A stretch of 64,000 bases of DNA from assembly GCF_900475755.1 (NCBI RefSeq), contig NZ_LS483411.1, positions 248,001-312,000 on the forward strand, read 5' to 3'. Under the pieces are notes generated by a model. The model was given only the letters and a program-made list of their open reading frames with translations. It ran no database searches and was not told the DNA's origin. The stretch comes from Haemophilus influenzae. GTDB taxonomy: Bacteria > Pseudomonadota > Gammaproteobacteria > Enterobacterales > Pasteurellaceae. Of this stretch, positions 41,662 through 51,414 are shown piece after piece. The translations under genes and the position numbers were made by a program. Within the stretch, counting starts at the first letter, position 1; every line of letters begins with the position of its first letter.

Positions 41662-41688
41662 AAAAATATGAGCCGCGAACGGCTCATA
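41662..41688 (-). terminator. Terminator after deoD
   Basis: TATGAGCCG / CGGCTCATA stem with a TTCG tetraloop in the minus-strand transcript, then TTTTTG. It lies between deoD and rplK and ends the deoD message. Confidence 0.85.
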
Positions 41689-41753: not shown

Positions 41754-42470
41754 TTATTGCGCATCACCAATTAACACTGAATCTAACGCAATTTCAATCA
41801 TATCATTGAATGTTAATTGACGTTCTTCTGCCGTGGTTTGTTCGTGAGTACGAATGTGGTCAGAGACGGTACAAATCGTTAATGCTTTCACACCATATTC
41901 TGCAGCCACACCATAAATTCCAGCAGCTTCCATTTCCACGCCTAGAATGCCGTATTTTTCCATTACATCGAACATTTCTACATCAGGTGTATAGAATAAA
42001 TCCGCCGAGAATAAGTTACCAACACGAACGGCTTTGCCTTTTGCTTTTGCAGCTTGAACAGCGGCTTGTGCCATATCGAAGTCGGCAATAGCTGCAAAGT
42101 CGTTATCTTTGAAACGAATACGGTTTACTTTTGAATCAGTACATGCACCTAAACCGATAATCACATCGCGCACTTTTACGTCCATACGAACAGCACCACA
42201 AGACCCTACACGGATGATTTTTTTCACGCCATATTCAGTGATTAATTCTTTCGCGTAAATAGAGCAAGATGGAATCCCCATACCGTGTCCCATAATAGAA
42301 ATTTTACGACCTTTGTAAGTTCCAGTAAAACCAAGCATATTACGAACATTCGTTACTTCAACTACATCTTGTAAAAAAGTTTCTGCAATGTATTTTGCAC
42401 GAAGTGGATCGCCAGGCATTAAAACAACATCAGCAAATGCACCTTCAGGCGCGTTAATATGTGGAGTCAT
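41754..42470 (-). CDS. deoD: Purine nucleoside phosphorylase, DeoD type
   Basis: 238 aa hexameric enzyme cleaving purine (deoxy)ribonucleosides with phosphate. Signatures: [58 protein letters not shown], and the catalytic Asp in [10 protein letters not shown]. It lies downstream of a CNT nucleoside transporter, with a terminator between them, and near yjjI-yjjW. Confidence 0.97.
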
Positions 42471-42508
42471 AATTTTTCCTTAATTTTTGATAATGAATAA
42501 AAATGAAT

Positions 42509-42537
42509 AAAGTGCGGTCATTTTTACCGCACTTTTT
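42509..42537 (-). terminator. Terminator between nupC-like gene and deoD (inverted USS pair)
   Basis: AAAGTGCGGT / ACCGCACTTT arms with a 7-nt loop. On the minus strand it is followed by TATTCATTTTT, a weak U-tract, so some readthrough into deoD is plausible. Confidence 0.75.
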
Positions 42538-42553
42538 AATTGATTAAGATAAA

Positions 42554-43807
42554 TTAAAGTGCTGCAGCACCTAAGCCGATAAATAAACCAGCAATAGTTG
42601 CACTCATTAAGTTAGCGAGAGTACCAGCGATAACGGCTTTGATACCTAAACGAGCAACATCACTACGACGGCTTGGTGCCATACCACCTAAACCACCAAT
42701 TAAGATTGCAATTGAGCTGAAGTTAGCAAAACCACAAAGTGCGAAAGTAATAATCGCTTTGGTTTTTTCAGTTAATACAATCGCAGAATCTGGTTGTAAG
42801 TATTTTGCAAATTCAAGATAACCCACAAATTCATTAACCGCTAATTTCATCCCGATCATTTGTCCTGCGATACCTGCTTCAGCACCATCTGTTACACCGA
42901 TTAAGTATGCTAATGGTTTGAAAATTAAACCAAAGATAGATTGTAACGTTAAGTCGCCATGGCCAAACCAGCCGCCAACGCCGCTTAAAATACCATTAAT
43001 TAATGCAATTAAACCAACGAATGCAATAAGCATTGCACCTACGTTTAATGCAAGTTGCATACCAGCACTCGCGCCACCCGCCATTGCTTCAAGTACGTTA
43101 GTTGGTTTTTCTGAATCATTGTCTTCTGGTTGTTTATCTGTAAATTGTTCAGTTTGTGGGAACATTAATTTCGCAAATAATAAACCTGCTGGTGCTGCCA
43201 TAAATGATGCTGCGATTAAGTATGTCAATGGCACGCCCATTCCTGCGTAACCCGCCATTACTGAACCCGCGATAGAGGCTGTTCCACCTACCATAATGGC
43301 AAATAATTCAGATTGGGTCATATTTTTAATGTAAGGACGAACAACTAGTGGTGCTTCAGTTTGACCAACGAAAATATTCGCCGCCGCTGACATTGATTCT
43401 GCTTTTGACGTACCCAATGCTTTTTGCAATGCACCACCTAATACTTTAATCACGACTTGCATAATGCCGAGATAGTAAAGCACAGAAATTAAGCCAGAGA
43501 AGAACACGATAATCGGTAATACTTTCACTGCAAAAATGAAACCTGATGGTTTACTTGGATCTGCTAATCCGCCGAAAACGAAATTAATCCCGTCGTTACC
43601 ATAGGCAATAACGTTAGATACCATATCCGCAGCGGCACCCAACGCCTGTTTACCTGCTGGCACATATAAAATAAGGGCGGCAAATCCTACTTGGATTGCT
43701 AACGCCCCCATTACGGTTCGAATACTAATCGCTTTACGATTATTGGACAGTAACACGGCAATAGCGATTAATACGACCATTCCCAAAATGCTGCTTAACA
43801 CACTCAT
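42554..43807 (-). CDS. Concentrative nucleoside transporter (CNT/NupC family)
   Basis: 417 aa with about ten membrane segments. Strongly like the Vibrio cholerae CNT of known structure: [59 protein letters not shown] (substrate loop), [10 protein letters not shown] and [19 protein letters not shown]. It is expected to import nucleosides with sodium or protons. Adjacent deoD supports a nucleoside role. AGGGGAATC ribosome site. Confidence 0.93.
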
Positions 43808-43907
43808 TTTTGATTCCCCTAGATTAGTTAAGTTAATAAAATTCGGCTTATTCTACTTGTTTTCTTATGAAAAGTCGGCGAATTTTCACCGCACTTTTTG
43901 TAAACGT

Positions 43908-44696
43908 CTATAAAATAGTCAAAACCTTGTTAATTCCACATTGACGTGCATAAGCAGCTAGGGCATTAGTTTCTTCCACACTTGGAATATATGCTGATAA
44001 CCCTGATTCATCACGCGCACCTTTACTATGCATACGGATAATTTTTAATGCCACGTCTGGATAATTTCGTAGTAGTTGAGCAACTTTGCTCACTAAATGT
44101 TCCGCATCAAAAAAATGCTTTAAAAAAACCAACCGCACTTCTTCCACTTTGTTTAATGGCAATAAGGTAGCTAAATTTTGCAAATTCCGCTCCAGTTTGT
44201 CGTTTTTTATATGTAAACGTTCTGGCATCACTTGCTGTGGTACGATTCCTGCTTGATTTTTCCGATCGAAACAAAGTGTTTGCAAGCCAACCCCCTCTCC
44301 TTTCAGATCGAATAAAAATTTGTCAGTAACATCTATTAACGAACGAATACGATCAAATTCAAAAAAGCCACTACTATCCAAATAACACGTCAATCCTTGC
44401 GAACGTAAAGCCTTAAAGAGTGGCACAAGTTTTTTGTGATGAATAGTGGGTTCTCCACCAGAAACCGTTACACCTCGAATAAAGGGCGTAGCTTCCATCA
44501 CTTGATCACATAAGTACTGCAAACTGACTAATTTTGCACTTTCCGTATAACGTGGAATGGTTTCTGGATTATGGCAATACAAGCAATTTAGTTTACAGCC
44601 TTGTAAAAAAATACTGGTACGATTGCCTTGCCCTTCTACATTTGAAAACGGAATAATCCGATGCAACGGCACAAAAATCTCAGAAAGTGCGGTCAT
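43908..44696 (-). CDS. yjjW: YjjW family glycyl-radical-enzyme activating enzyme (radical SAM)
   Basis: 262 aa. Radical-SAM motif GCKLNCLYCHNPET (CxxxCxxC) near residue 33, followed by VTVSGGEPTIHHKKL. The usual second ferredoxin-like cluster domain of many GRE activases appears absent or reduced. It is predicted to install the glycyl radical on YjjI, encoded 8 nt upstream in the same operon. The start codon is fused to a USS (ATG ACC GCA CTT, M-T-A-L), with no strong ribosome site, suggesting coupling to yjjI. Confidence 0.9.
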   Translation of the reverse strand: MTALSEIFVPLHRIIPFSNVEGQGNRTSIFLQGCKLNCLYCHNPETIPRYTESAKLVSLQYLCDQVMEATPFIRGVTVSGGEPTIHHKKLVPLFKALRSQGLTCYLDSSGFFEFDRIRSLIDVTDKFLFDLKGEGVGLQTLCFDRKNQAGIVPQQVMPERLHIKNDKLERNLQNLATLLPLNKVEEVRLVFLKHFFDAEHLVSKVAQLLRNYPDVALKIIRMHSKGARDESGLSAYIPSVEETNALAAYARQCGINKVLTIL

Positions 44697-44704
44697 TTTT
44701 TCAA

Positions 44705-46249
44705 TTATTTTTCAGCAGTGACATCTTTTTCATCGCGTAATTGGCGATCAAACACGTTGGCACATTCATCCGTACCTGAGCCATACCAAGTTGTATCGCG
44801 TAATGCGACTTCGCCTTTGCGATATTTTTCAACTTCGCTTTTCTTCACTAAATAACCTGTAACACGAATTAAATCTGTATTTTTCAAATAGGTGGTAATG
44901 TAGCGATAACCTAAGGAAAATGCACCATCAATAATATCTACCACCGCATCGCAGTGATCTACATAGGTTTGATCAAAGGCGAATAAATCCCCTGTACCAG
45001 ATGGGAAATATTTATGGAACGGTGCAGACTGTTTCAAATGCGCAAGTAAAGTCGGTTCTTCGCCTACACGAATACGATGCGCTGGTGCGTTGCGTTTGTC
45101 TTCTTCGTGGTTGCTTGCGCCCACTTGTGCATGTAATAAATAACGATTGCCAGTGCGTTCGGCATAAACTCCTTCGTGCGCATCAGTAATTTCTTTCAAT
45201 TTATCCATAATCGCTGTGGCAATGTCATCGCCACGAACGCTCTCACCAAAGGTTTCATTTAAGCCTTCACATTGCAATAAGTGATTTGTGGCATCAGCCA
45301 AGCCTACAATTGCGAACATCCCCGTAAAATTAGTACGTTTGATAAAGCCTTCTTTTTCGAGGAATGAACTGTTAAAGAAATTACTTTCTTCCACTACAAA
45401 CTTATGGCGTTTATCCATCGTCGAAAGAGCACATTTTGCCACACGTGGTAATAATTCGTTTACCATTTCATCCGCACTTTTACAGGTGCGAGCAATTGTC
45501 CCTAGACGTAAACGCGTTAATGTATAAGCACCGCCACATTCAGGCAGTGCGTTATAGCAACTTGCTACGCCATATTCTTCACCAAGATCGGAAATATAGT
45601 AAGCATCGTTCGCAAAAGATGGTTTAGAAACTAATAAACAGGCTTTTGCTGCAAGTTCAGCAAACTCACGGCTCGTTTTGGATTTATCATAACGAATAGT
45701 CATATTCGGTGTTGGCGCTTCAAGCTCAATCACCGCGCGTAAAATCAAGCGACCCGCTTTCGTATCATAAGGTCCAATATTGGCATGACAGAATGAATCA
45801 GGCACAGTTTTGTCGATATGATTTAAGAAACGTTTAATTTTGATGTAGTCTTTTTCTTCATCAGTAATGAACGGTTCGAGCAATACATCAAGACGACCAA
45901 CATAAACAGGATAAGTTGTAATGGATGGCACGTGGGAGTAAAGAATCAATAATCCATCAAGTGCCTCATCAAGATCTTTTGGTGGCGGCAGCTCTAAAAA
46001 TTCGCAGCCTTTTTGGATATATACATTATAATCAGGCAGGATATAGCGAGGGCGATAAATCGCGTAACCTTCACATAAATCACAAATCATCTGATTCTGT
46101 AAAAAGCTCCATTCTTCATCGGTATAGCCAAGCAAATCGCGAGGATCAAATAAACGCTCAGCAATATTGCCTAATGTCATTAATTTTTGATGATAAGTCA
46201 GATTATTGGCTTTAACCGTATCGAGAATATCTTGAAGTGAAGCTAACAT
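44705..46249 (-). CDS. yjjI: YjjI family glycyl radical enzyme
   Basis: 514 aa. The C-terminal glycyl-radical motif RVTGYL puts the radical Gly at about residue 465. The family's conserved SCYN block gives a candidate thiyl Cys at residue 231, with another Cys at 238. It matches E. coli YjjI by recall in SCYN and RVTGY. GREs are oxygen-sensitive and work anaerobically. The substrate is unknown to me; neighbours (YjjW activase, nucleoside transporter, DeoD) hint at nucleoside or deoxyribose chemistry. A CRP site lies upstream. Confidence 0.9.
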   Translation of the reverse strand: MLASLQDILDTVKANNLTYHQKLMTLGNIAERLFDPRDLLGYTDEEWSFLQNQMICDLCEGYAIYRPRYILPDYNVYIQKGCEFLELPPPKDLDEALDGLLILYSHVPSITTYPVYVGRLDVLLEPFITDEEKDYIKIKRFLNHIDKTVPDSFCHANIGPYDTKAGRLILRAVIELEAPTPNMTIRYDKSKTSREFAELAAKACLLVSKPSFANDAYYISDLGEEYGVASCYNALPECGGAYTLTRLRLGTIARTCKSADEMVNELLPRVAKCALSTMDKRHKFVVEESNFFNSSFLEKEGFIKRTNFTGMFAIVGLADATNHLLQCEGLNETFGESVRGDDIATAIMDKLKEITDAHEGVYAERTGNRYLLHAQVGASNHEEDKRNAPAHRIRVGEEPTLLAHLKQSAPFHKYFPSGTGDLFAFDQTYVDHCDAVVDIIDGAFSLGYRYITTYLKNTDLIRVTGYLVKKSEVEKYRKGEVALRDTTWYGSGTDECANVFDRQLRDEKDVTAEK

Positions 46250-46313
46250 AACGTCCCCTTTAAAAATGGTTTTGTATTGTACGCAATGGTAACAAAATAG
46301 ACAATTTTGAAAA

Positions 46314-46329
46314 CGTGAGGAAGATCACA
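46314..46329 (-). promoter_or_regulatory. CRP site upstream of yjjI
   Basis: On the minus strand TGTGA-N6-TCACG, 9 of 10 to consensus, about 65-80 bp before the yjjI start. A TACAAT -10 candidate lies between. It could also act on the divergent YczE-like gene. Confidence 0.7.
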
Positions 46330-46464: not shown

Positions 46465-47121
46465 ATGAAGAAAAAAGCACGCGTTATCCCCCACACATCT
46501 TGGGCAGCCACATCATTATGGACAGTGCAATATAAAACCATTTCAATCTTACTTTTTGCTCTTTCTATTTTAGGTATTGGAGATGGGCTTATTGTATTAT
46601 CAGGTTTAGGATCGACACCTTGGACTGTACTTTCACAAGGTATAGCAATACAGACAAATTTTGACATTGGCTGGTCATCTTTTTTAATTAGTTGCGCAGT
46701 AATGTTGGTATGGAAACCACTCAAATTACGCCTTGGGCTTGGGACATTATTAAATATTATCATTATTGCTCTATTTCTAGGGATCACAACAAAAATACTG
46801 ACGCCGCCAACCGCACTTTTTTCACGAATGATCTTCTGTCTGATCGGTATATTACTCTATGGTTTTGGAACTGCGTTATATCTCACTTGTTACTTAGGTG
46901 CAGGCCCTCGAGACGGATTGATGGTTGGTATTTGCCAACGTTTTCATTTAAGCATCAACGTGGTACGCTCAAGCCTTGAAATCTCGGTTTGTTTACTTGG
47001 TTTTTTACTTGGTGGTGTCGTTGGATTGGGTACTGTCCTTTTCGCCACCAGCATAGGCAGCGTTGTTCAATTCTTCTTAAATATTATTGCTCGTTTGCCA
47101 CATATTCCGTATGAAAAGTGA
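46465..47121 (+). CDS. YczE/YyaS/YitT-like integral membrane protein
   Basis: 218 aa with about five or six membrane helices. Motifs LIVLSGLGSTPWTVLSQGIA and YLGAGPRDGLMVGICQRF fit the YczE/YitT-type family, whose function is largely unknown. It is divergent from yjjI, and its last 45 nt overlap the 3' end of the convergent heptosyltransferase gene. Start ATG has AAAAGGTAATAAAT ahead. Confidence 0.75.
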   Translation: MKKKARVIPHTSWAATSLWTVQYKTISILLFALSILGIGDGLIVLSGLGSTPWTVLSQGIAIQTNFDIGWSSFLISCAVMLVWKPLKLRLGLGTLLNIIIIALFLGITTKILTPPTALFSRMIFCLIGILLYGFGTALYLTCYLGAGPRDGLMVGICQRFHLSINVVRSSLEISVCLLGFLLGGVVGLGTVLFATSIGSVVQFFLNIIARLPHIPYEK

Positions 47122-50631: not shown

Positions 50632-51414
50632 TTATTTGCTTTGGCAATTCATTACCTGCCATTTTTTATCATAACAAATAAATAATTCATTTCGACTTGC
50701 CTTCAAATACGCATTTTTTAATTGTGGATTATGTTGTTTCATCCAACCAAAAAGTTCATTACGGCTTAATTTTTGATTCGGTAATTTTAATGCGTTAAAT
50801 AATTCCTGCTCCTTAGCAAAATATTGCTGGGCAGAATCAAAAGCACAACTACCGTGTTTTTCCCACTCGCCTTGCAATAATTGCTCGCTCGGAGAAATTG
50901 CCAAATATTGTGCTAATAAACCTTTTGGCAAAGCAAGTAAATCGCCTTTGCAAAAACGAGGATGATCTGAAACAACGCGAGCATTTGCATTTTGAGGCCA
51001 TAGCCCATGTACAACCCAACCAAAAGTGCGGTTATTTCCACATTGATATTGGGAGGATGCAGGCAACTGATCGCCATATTTTTCACGCTGAATATCACAA
51101 AATCCGGGCGACCAAGATAATGCCAACATATAATAATCAACAGGTGCCTTTGCATTTTGCCCAATATGATCATTGCGCATAATCACATCATAGTTTGCAA
51201 AAACATCTGGATTTTTTACCGCACTTTTTTCAATATCTGTCCGCTTTGTCTCAAATTGAGGCTCTAATTTAGGTTCAGGTGCTTTTGTTTGCTTAGCCTG
51301 TTCGATTACGGGAGAAGACGATTGATGTTTAGCTTTGGTTGGATTAGTAAAATATTGCCAAATTGCTAATACAACAAGGATAATAAGAGAAAGAATGGAA
51401 GTAAGTTTTTTCAT
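50632..51414 (-). CDS. RNase T2 family ribonuclease (RNase I-like), membrane-anchored or periplasmic
   Basis: 260 aa. N-terminal hydrophobic segment (about residues 5-22) without an obvious cleavage site, a Lys/Glu/Pro-rich linker to about residue 75, then the T2 domain with catalytic blocks HGLWPQN and WEKHGSCAF, and YYMLALSWSPGFC. The enzyme likely degrades RNA outside the cytoplasm. The next gene is a divergent ferredoxin. Two USS lie in the coding region. Confidence 0.9.
   Translation of the reverse strand: MKKLTSILSLIILVVLAIWQYFTNPTKAKHQSSSPVIEQAKQTKAPEPKLEPQFETKRTDIEKSAVKNPDVFANYDVIMRNDHIGQNAKAPVDYYMLALSWSPGFCDIQREKYGDQLPASSQYQCGNNRTFGWVVHGLWPQNANARVVSDHPRFCKGDLLALPKGLLAQYLAISPSEQLLQGEWEKHGSCAFDSAQQYFAKEQELFNALKLPNQKLSRNELFGWMKQHNPQLKNAYLKASRNELFICYDKKWQVMNCQSK

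Follow-up and report, generated by a model that had tools for sequence, protein, structure and literature searches.

Glycyl-radical enzymes are marked by an RVxGY-type C-terminal motif and a finger-loop cysteine, and those standing closest to the subject of this work are pyruvate formate-lyase (PFL), the dehydratases and lyases with a Cys-x-Glu (CxE) motif, such as CutC and glycerol dehydratase, and the anaerobic ribonucleotide reductase NrdD. Escherichia coli YbiW and PflD are reported to act on anhydrohexitol 6-phosphates with C-O cleavage (PMC12441222, citing work of Ma et al.). The subject, YjjI, is encoded beside its putative activase YjjW in a 64,000-nucleotide stretch of the Haemophilus influenzae genome (contig NZ_LS483411.1, positions 248,001–312,000; hereafter the window). 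It belongs to the family TIGR04040/PF11230 (formerly DUF3029), which is typed as hypoth_equivalog in NCBIfam and has no assigned reaction; E. coli K-12 has a family member by its deo operon, annotated only as a DUF3029 protein.

As judged from sequence comparison, there is a somewhat better than even prospect that YjjI is a glycyl-radical enzyme which functions anaerobically, is probably under CRP control and has a nucleoside or a derived pentose phosphate as its substrate, and the gene neighbourhoods of some, not most, distant relatives suggest a role in anaerobic nucleoside breakdown. If true, this would be a new radical reaction in the nucleoside metabolism of anaerobically growing bacteria. 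No description of a nucleoside role for YjjI was found in a limited literature search, most subscription journals being outside its coverage.

Gene neighbourhoods of yjjI

Open reading frame positions and family scores bear out the preliminary description of this locus, made from the letters of the window, in that yjjI, yjjW, nupC and deoD all run leftward within 4.6 kb. The gene yjjI (44705–46249, minus strand) encodes a glycyl-radical enzyme of 514 residues, a full-length family member scoring 760.5 bits against TIGR04040 (curated cut-off 498.3) and 707.6 bits against PF11230, while yjjW (43908–44696, minus strand) encodes a radical S-adenosylmethionine (SAM) activase of 262 residues without the ferredoxin insert, matching Radical_SAM and Fer4_12 in Pfam. 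They are followed by nupC (42554–43807, minus strand), encoding a nupC-type nucleoside transporter of 417 residues (TIGR00804, 544.5 bits; cut-off 442), and deoD (41754–42470, minus strand), encoding a purine nucleoside phosphorylase of 238 residues (TIGR00107, 414.3 bits; cut-off 232.25), the gaps being 8 bases (yjjI/yjjW), 100 bases (yjjW/nupC) and 83 bases (nupC/deoD). Among the best 80 of 547 loci, the closest named YjjI proteins (98–99% identical) come from H. haemolyticus, H. influenzae and their relatives. Identity with the window YjjI is 47–78% for the proteins from outside Pasteurellaceae in the named-genome scan and only 39% for E. coli YjjI. The gene is constrained, with a ratio of nonsynonymous to synonymous substitution (dN/dS) from the window of 0.016–0.048 in the seven comparisons, out of nine, that were computable, five of the seven having dS above 1, near saturation.

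Neighbourhoods were compared at 127 loci, namely the best 80 of the 547 YjjI loci in the named-genome scan (44 Pasteurellaceae and 36 others), 21 from other Enterobacterales (E. coli and 20 regions hand-picked from 74 to spread families and genera, not a random draw) and 26 from the phylum samples of Lachnoanaerobaculum and Treponema, the last being the full YjjI matches minus four genomes already included, with L157 partial. A nucleoside marker gene lies within 8 kb of yjjI in 51/127 loci, against 2/26 nrdD neighbourhoods, a control drawn from 26 of the 27 NrdD-bearing genomes among the named loci (one was left out). By group, the marker is present in 26/44 Pasteurellaceae loci (a count that keeps L082, the second piece of the L039 contig), 13/36 other named loci, 6/21 other Enterobacterales and 6/26 loci from the two phylum samples. 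The preliminary description had proposed testing whether nucleoside genes are over-represented around yjjI in distantly related genomes, and they are: 19/62 non-proteobacterial loci carry a marker versus 2/26 in the nrdD control (one-sided Fisher p 0.017), and the 36 non-Pasteurellaceae named loci also exceed the control (one-sided Fisher p 0.009). The association between yjjI and nucleoside genes is real but partial.

A label-free clustering of neighbours, anchored on YjjI at 31 of the 36 non-Pasteurellaceae loci, recovered YjjW in 29 loci, a generic ABC-ATPase in 21, BPD_transp_2-type permeases in 11 and BMP lipoproteins in 8, every other neighbour family occurring in 5 loci or fewer; the Pfam types of representative neighbours are Bmp (PnrA-like), ABC_tran and BPD_transp_2. 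ATPase and permease genes come 8–219 bases after yjjW, in the same orientation, in 12 of the 36 non-Pasteurellaceae loci, and nine of these 12 have a BMP gene directly upstream of yjjI. PnrA-like ABC transporter genes of this kind surround yjjI-yjjW in Bacillota, Deferribacteraceae and Treponema. The BMP protein of L055 is closest to Treponema pallidum TmpC (PDB 2fqw, E 1.2e-97), which we take to be the purine nucleoside receptor PnrA, and that of L086 to PDB 7x0r 'Lbp' (E 2.5e-144), with 2fqw next. The Lachnoanaerobaculum locus L086 has the order uridine phosphorylase, BMP, yjjI, yjjW, ATPase, two permeases, deoC, adenosine deaminase and deoB, while in the Treponema locus L057 the transporter genes are followed by one for a kinase of the PfkB type and one for a protein of the Indigoidine_A (PsuG) family, the latter without an NCBIfam match. 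Loci L128 and L129 share the order deoA, 5'-nucleotidase (typed UshA in L129), yjjI and yjjW, and L149, L151 and L152 have a homologous gene after yjjW, whose L151 copy is typed as xanthine phosphoribosyltransferase, an enzyme not counted as a marker.

Within Pasteurellaceae a CNT transporter accompanies yjjI in 26/44 loci, whereas the relatives outside have the BMP transporter, which is of another family. The Pasteurellaceae contexts are nupC-deoD or nupC-deoC-deoB-deoD, and Chelonobacter, three Spirabiliibacterium, two Testudinibacter and P. testudinis have the order yjjI, yjjW, CNT, deoC, deoB, deoD. The preliminary description had also placed yjjI-yjjW next to the deo operon in E. coli; it does adjoin deoC-deoA-deoB-deoD there, divergently, and the divergent deoCABD arrangement recurs in three genomes grouping with E. 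coli. The nucleoside gene sets in these separate YjjI lineages are different and unrelated. The substrate class is proposed from context, which would narrow the search for a substrate to nucleosides and pentose phosphates. The operons of Lachnoanaerobaculum (L086), L128, L129 and Spirabiliibacterium (L036) make the substrate question directly testable.

Other gene arrangements were seen beside yjjI as well. In L052 (6825–8395, typed) and L067 (by cluster), BMP-yjjI is preceded by a pair of genes for a fumarase-type enzyme in two parts, and the open reading frames after yjjW in the Pasteurellaceae loci L021 and L064 resemble glpF and glpK by eye. Two database proteins, P0095 and P0124, on one contig each, have YjjI fused to a PNP_UDP_1 or a DeoC domain and are probably assembly or deletion artefacts.

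Several observations weigh against a nucleoside role. No marker was found within 8 kb at 76/127 loci, and outside Pasteurellaceae only 25/83 loci have one and 58/83 do not; a 10-row Clostridium-type clade has none, and 12 loci from one branch of Enterobacterales (L115–L124, L132, L134), all without a marker, share a LysR-type gene near yjjW, of which one copy is Pfam-typed and that of L117 has 23% identity with E. coli YidZ. Pairing within the 26 control genomes gives a modest difference (9 with a marker at yjjI only, 2 at nrdD only, 0 at both, 15 at neither), and the marker set was partly picked after the first loci had been inspected. DeoC is present in 55/56 genomes tested, so that its co-occurrence with YjjI is uninformative, and deoB is absent in 9/11 YjjI-bearing versus 7/13 YjjI-free Pasteurellaceae; as this is no clear difference, deoB absence was dropped as a partner signal of YjjI. 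The genome of the window itself has DeoD and DeoC, and a profile search found no DeoB phosphopentomutase in it at E 1e-20, which is suggestive only as a hint to the role of YjjI because the 7 YjjI-free Pasteurellaceae also do without deoB. For five sets of yjjW, nupC and deoD that are parted from yjjI (see below), a search of the 300 bases upstream gave no CRP-like site with fewer than two mismatches. Of the proposal that YjjI carries out an anaerobic radical reaction on a nucleoside or a (deoxy)ribose product, the recurrence of the gene context in distant genomes has stood, but most loci outside Pasteurellaceae do not show it.

The marker-free majority of loci, and the LysR-type gene found by yjjW in its stead, would also fit a yjjI-yjjW pair that lands near transporters by chance and has its role elsewhere, for example in nitrogen metabolism. 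That function was guessed for yjjI in a computational paper (PMC3228777), in which yjjI of E. coli and Salmonella falls into one expression cluster with nitrogen genes, narG among them. Such an incidental context is unlikely, as the gene sets that represent the one substrate class differ from lineage to lineage and are unrelated, and the nrdD control is low. Another cargo of the same transporters, such as 5'-deoxyadenosine or a methylthioribose-type sugar released by radical-SAM enzymes, is brought to mind by L147, where genes of an MtnA-like isomerase and a class II aldolase follow yjjW, with BMP two genes further on. These genes resemble the isomerase and aldolase steps described for 5-deoxyribose salvage (PMC6079011) and for the dihydroxyacetone phosphate shunt (PMC12632272), but they occur at a single locus and the other contexts carry ordinary nucleoside genes, making a substrate of this kind very unlikely.

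Distribution of YjjI and the activase YjjW

Full-length YjjI (above 650 bits) is present in 74/295 Enterobacterales genomes (85 genomes gave a match, of which the remaining 11 score below 30 bits), 26/398 genomes of the Lachnoanaerobaculum phylum (one partial), 4/149 genomes of the Treponema phylum and 6/200 genomes of the window's own phylum, the window included. Two weak matches from the Lachnoanaerobaculum phylum proved to be NrdD-like: they are 670 and 733 residues long and share 35% and 34% identity, respectively, with E. coli NrdD. A tree of 104 rows was built by a quick method, leaving out 22 loci (near-duplicates, fragments and thinning) as well as L133 and L157, whose YjjI was missed by the open reading frame caller. 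In it, Pasteurellaceae YjjI forms one clade (33 rows, support 100) that adjoins Erysipelotrichaceae (support 97) within a mainly Bacillota group, and E. coli YjjI falls in a distant 28-row clade with some genomes sampled from the Lachnoanaerobaculum phylum. This nesting indicates that Pasteurellaceae yjjI was most likely acquired from outside Proteobacteria. The context of yjjI has changed, by gain or loss, at least 16 times on the tree.

In 80/83 non-Pasteurellaceae loci the activase gene is no more than 1.1 kb away from the midpoint of yjjI. Fifteen Pasteurellaceae loci without a YjjW label were checked by tblastn, which showed yjjW adjoining in 7 and parted in 8 (L013–L015, L017–L019, L045 and L051, comprising H. 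parainfluenzae-type genomes and three Rodentibacter). All eight of the latter have yjjW elsewhere in the genome, and in all five regions examined it stands beside nupC and deoD without yjjI. The parted yjjI copies are constrained as well, with dN/dS of 0.015 and 0.024 in two pairs.

The window YjjW contains the motif CxxxCxxC (CKLNCLYC; 44574–44597, minus strand), the predicted radical-SAM cluster site. Its best NCBIfam match, TIGR04041, reaches 163.9 bits and is below the cut-off of 250.2, as expected given the missing ferredoxin insert; the name YjjW is taken solely from this match and the position beside yjjI. The lack of the usual ferredoxin domain had been suspected from the window sequence and turns out to be common to the nearest relatives in other phyla. 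The insert is absent in 35/35 scorable Pasteurellaceae YjjW, window included (2 more are unscorable), in 0/21 other Enterobacterales and in 22/60 of the remaining, non-Enterobacterales proteins, one of the 60 being a radical-SAM match in a control region. In the 47-row YjjI clade that holds Pasteurellaceae, 13/13 scored relatives are without it, as are some rows elsewhere in the tree, which points to a trait of the clade and to loss of the insert on more than one occasion.

Upstream signals and flanking features

The CRP-like site TGTGATCTTCCTCACG (46314–46329, minus strand) ahead of yjjI had been picked out as a 9/10 match; the predicted site is present and, with at most one mismatch, conserved in 36/44 Pasteurellaceae upstream regions (those of the window and of 43 loci, L082 being excluded here), compared with 0.8% of mononucleotide shuffles, although the fraction is no probability since these regions share kinship. 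Alone, the yjjI site is not significant, the window having four one-mismatch sites against 2.36 expected; the evidence for it is its conservation across Pasteurellaceae, from which yjjI is probably CRP-controlled. The site lies 67–104 bases from the yjjI start in 33 of the 36 matching regions, while in L032, L041 and L050 the distance is 140–240 bases, either because the start is called too far upstream or because the start itself differs. No such site was found upstream of yjjI in L021, L023, L024, L031, L034, L035, L037 and L053. In E. coli, a CRP site detected by chromatin immunoprecipitation lies between yjjI and deoC (PMC4287617), and the row of yjjI in a published FNR table directly precedes the directly repressed group, which presumably places yjjI among the FNR-activated operons (PMC3688515).

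A sigma-70-like promoter (TTGTCT-17-TACAAT; 46276–46304, minus strand) is predicted between the CRP-like site and yjjI; it is a consensus match only, as the scan gave 10 such sites and shuffles 16.1 on average. A terminator-like hairpin of 10 pairs, formed by two inverted uptake signal sequences, separates nupC from deoD (42509–42535, minus strand), so a single four-gene transcript is not assured and deoD may be a separate transcription unit. The terminator scan placed another such hairpin 3' of deoD (41667–41688, minus strand), the 64-kb stretch having 7 terminator-like sites versus 4.7 expected from shuffles. The uptake signal AAGTGCGGT occurs in 59 copies in the window, against 0.44 expected. 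Neither Rfam (at gathering scores) nor a tRNA scan gave a match in the window.

Divergent from yjjI lies a gene for a YczE-type membrane protein (46465–47121, plus strand; NF052291, 221 bits), and in several relatives opposite open reading frames of 218–260 residues occupy this position. A ribonuclease T2 family protein is encoded 4.4 kb from yjjI (50632–51414, minus strand) and could be a nucleotide source for a route involving YjjI.

Active site of YjjI compared with known glycyl-radical enzymes

The active site was read from hhalign comparisons of profiles built from 70 YjjI, 23 PFL-family proteins (12 of them non-PFL) and 30 NrdD, in which PFL residues carry their literature numbers, one below the counts in the alignment, and the named active-site residues of PFL and the CxE dehydratases have their established roles. 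YjjI has its best profile match in the PFL family (probability 98.9, E 1.4e-17, YjjI residues 39–483), followed by NrdD (probability 98.6, E 1.2e-15, YjjI residues 73–453), while NrdD and PFL match each other with probability 86.6; aligning to both, YjjI is placed between them. A search of solved structures with the single YjjI sequence returned none up to E 1, and with the 70-sequence profile only PFL (E 0.059).

The RVTGY and SCYN motifs of YjjI and the CxxxCxxC motif of YjjW, all three named in the preliminary description, are present, and YjjI shows both sequence marks of the superfamily. Gly465 (44855–44857, minus strand), in RVTGY (462–466), is the predicted glycyl-radical site and stands at the PFL radical glycine with confidence 9, and Cys231 (45557–45559, minus strand), in SCYN (230–233), is the predicted thiyl-radical cysteine, its column holding PFL Cys419 (confidence 9) and NrdD Cys384 (confidence 4). 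Tyr69, Ser230, Cys231, Arg246, Gly465 and Tyr466 are invariant in all 70 YjjI sequences, the exception among the columns considered being Asn233 (69/70).

By analogy with PFL and NrdD, YjjW would put a radical onto Gly465, from which it would pass to Cys231, and the Cys231 thiyl radical would then abstract hydrogen from a sugar-type substrate held in a pocket that is predicted from the alignment. The substrate would most likely be a nucleoside, or a pentose phosphate formed by DeoD, DeoA or uridine phosphorylase. YjjI would thus add an oxygen-sensitive step to nucleoside catabolism without oxygen at high cAMP, and in the Haemophilus of the window, with deoD and deoC and no deoB found, it might serve as an exit for pentose 1-phosphate.

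PFL and YjjI share homology over residues 39–483, the radical glycine and cysteine, and Arg246 at the position of PFL Arg435, which binds the substrate carboxylate. These likenesses, together with the best profile match, would suit a PFL-like C-C lyase whose substrate is a carboxylate, such as a 2-oxo acid, without any nucleoside connection. However, the adjacent cysteines (CC) of PFL are replaced by an invariant Ser230-Cys231 pair (70/70), with Ser230 at the catalytic Cys418; Tyr69 stands at PFL Arg176 (confidence 9), so the substrate-binding arginine pair Arg176 and Arg435 is not reproduced, and Arg246 aligns to Arg435 with medium confidence only (5). As it also leaves the nucleoside genes unexplained, a PFL-like activity is quite unlikely.

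The CxE dehydratases and lyases resemble YjjI in having a single thiyl cysteine in the aligned loop, but YjjI has Cys-Tyr-Asn where these enzymes have Cys-Val/Ile-Glu, Asn233 standing at their glutamate. At the position of Tyr69 the residue is His in 9, Asp in 2 and Glu in 1 of the 12 non-PFL proteins, and where YjjI has Arg246 they have Tyr, Phe, Met or Asn.

NrdD is like YjjI in the profile match over residues 73–453 and in the radical cysteine, and is linked to it through nucleosides by gene context only. A small ribonucleotide-reductase-like YjjI could reduce ribonucleosides at C2' and so feed deoxyribose to DeoC, in keeping with the alignment to 30 NrdD, with deoC, deoB and phosphorylases in some yjjI operons, and with the lack of Glu at the CxE position, a residue rare in class III ribonucleotide reductases according to one study (PMC4390871). 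Against this, the Cys384-Arg385 pair invariant in NrdD (30/30) is Cys231-Tyr232 in 70/70 YjjI, and a counterpart of the reductive cysteine (E. coli Cys175) is probably absent, an ungapped reading by eye placing Tyr69 there although the profile alignment only begins at residue 73. The window YjjI has no NRDD, ATP-cone or Zn ribbon Pfam match and no CxxC in its final 120 residues, though some relatives carry a precomputed PF13597 tag. A ribonucleotide-reductase-like activity is therefore highly improbable, and YjjI as simply a small NrdD was rejected, since PFL aligns at least equally well and the NrdD Cys-Arg is absent.

As aligned, the active-site signature of YjjI (Tyr69, Ser230-Cys231-Tyr232-Asn233 and Arg246) matches no PFL, NrdD or CxE dehydratase. 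Together with the gene context, it makes it possible, at somewhat short of even probability, that YjjI represents another class of reaction among glycyl-radical enzymes, with a nucleoside or pentose 1-phosphate as substrate, and an unrecognised anaerobic catabolic branch in Bacillota, Pasteurellaceae and E. coli. The precedent for a glycyl-radical enzyme working on a cyclic sugar phosphate comes from YbiW and PflD with their 1,5-anhydrohexitol 6-phosphates (PMC12441222), and by analogy YjjI may break a C-O bond of a sugar phosphate by radical chemistry.

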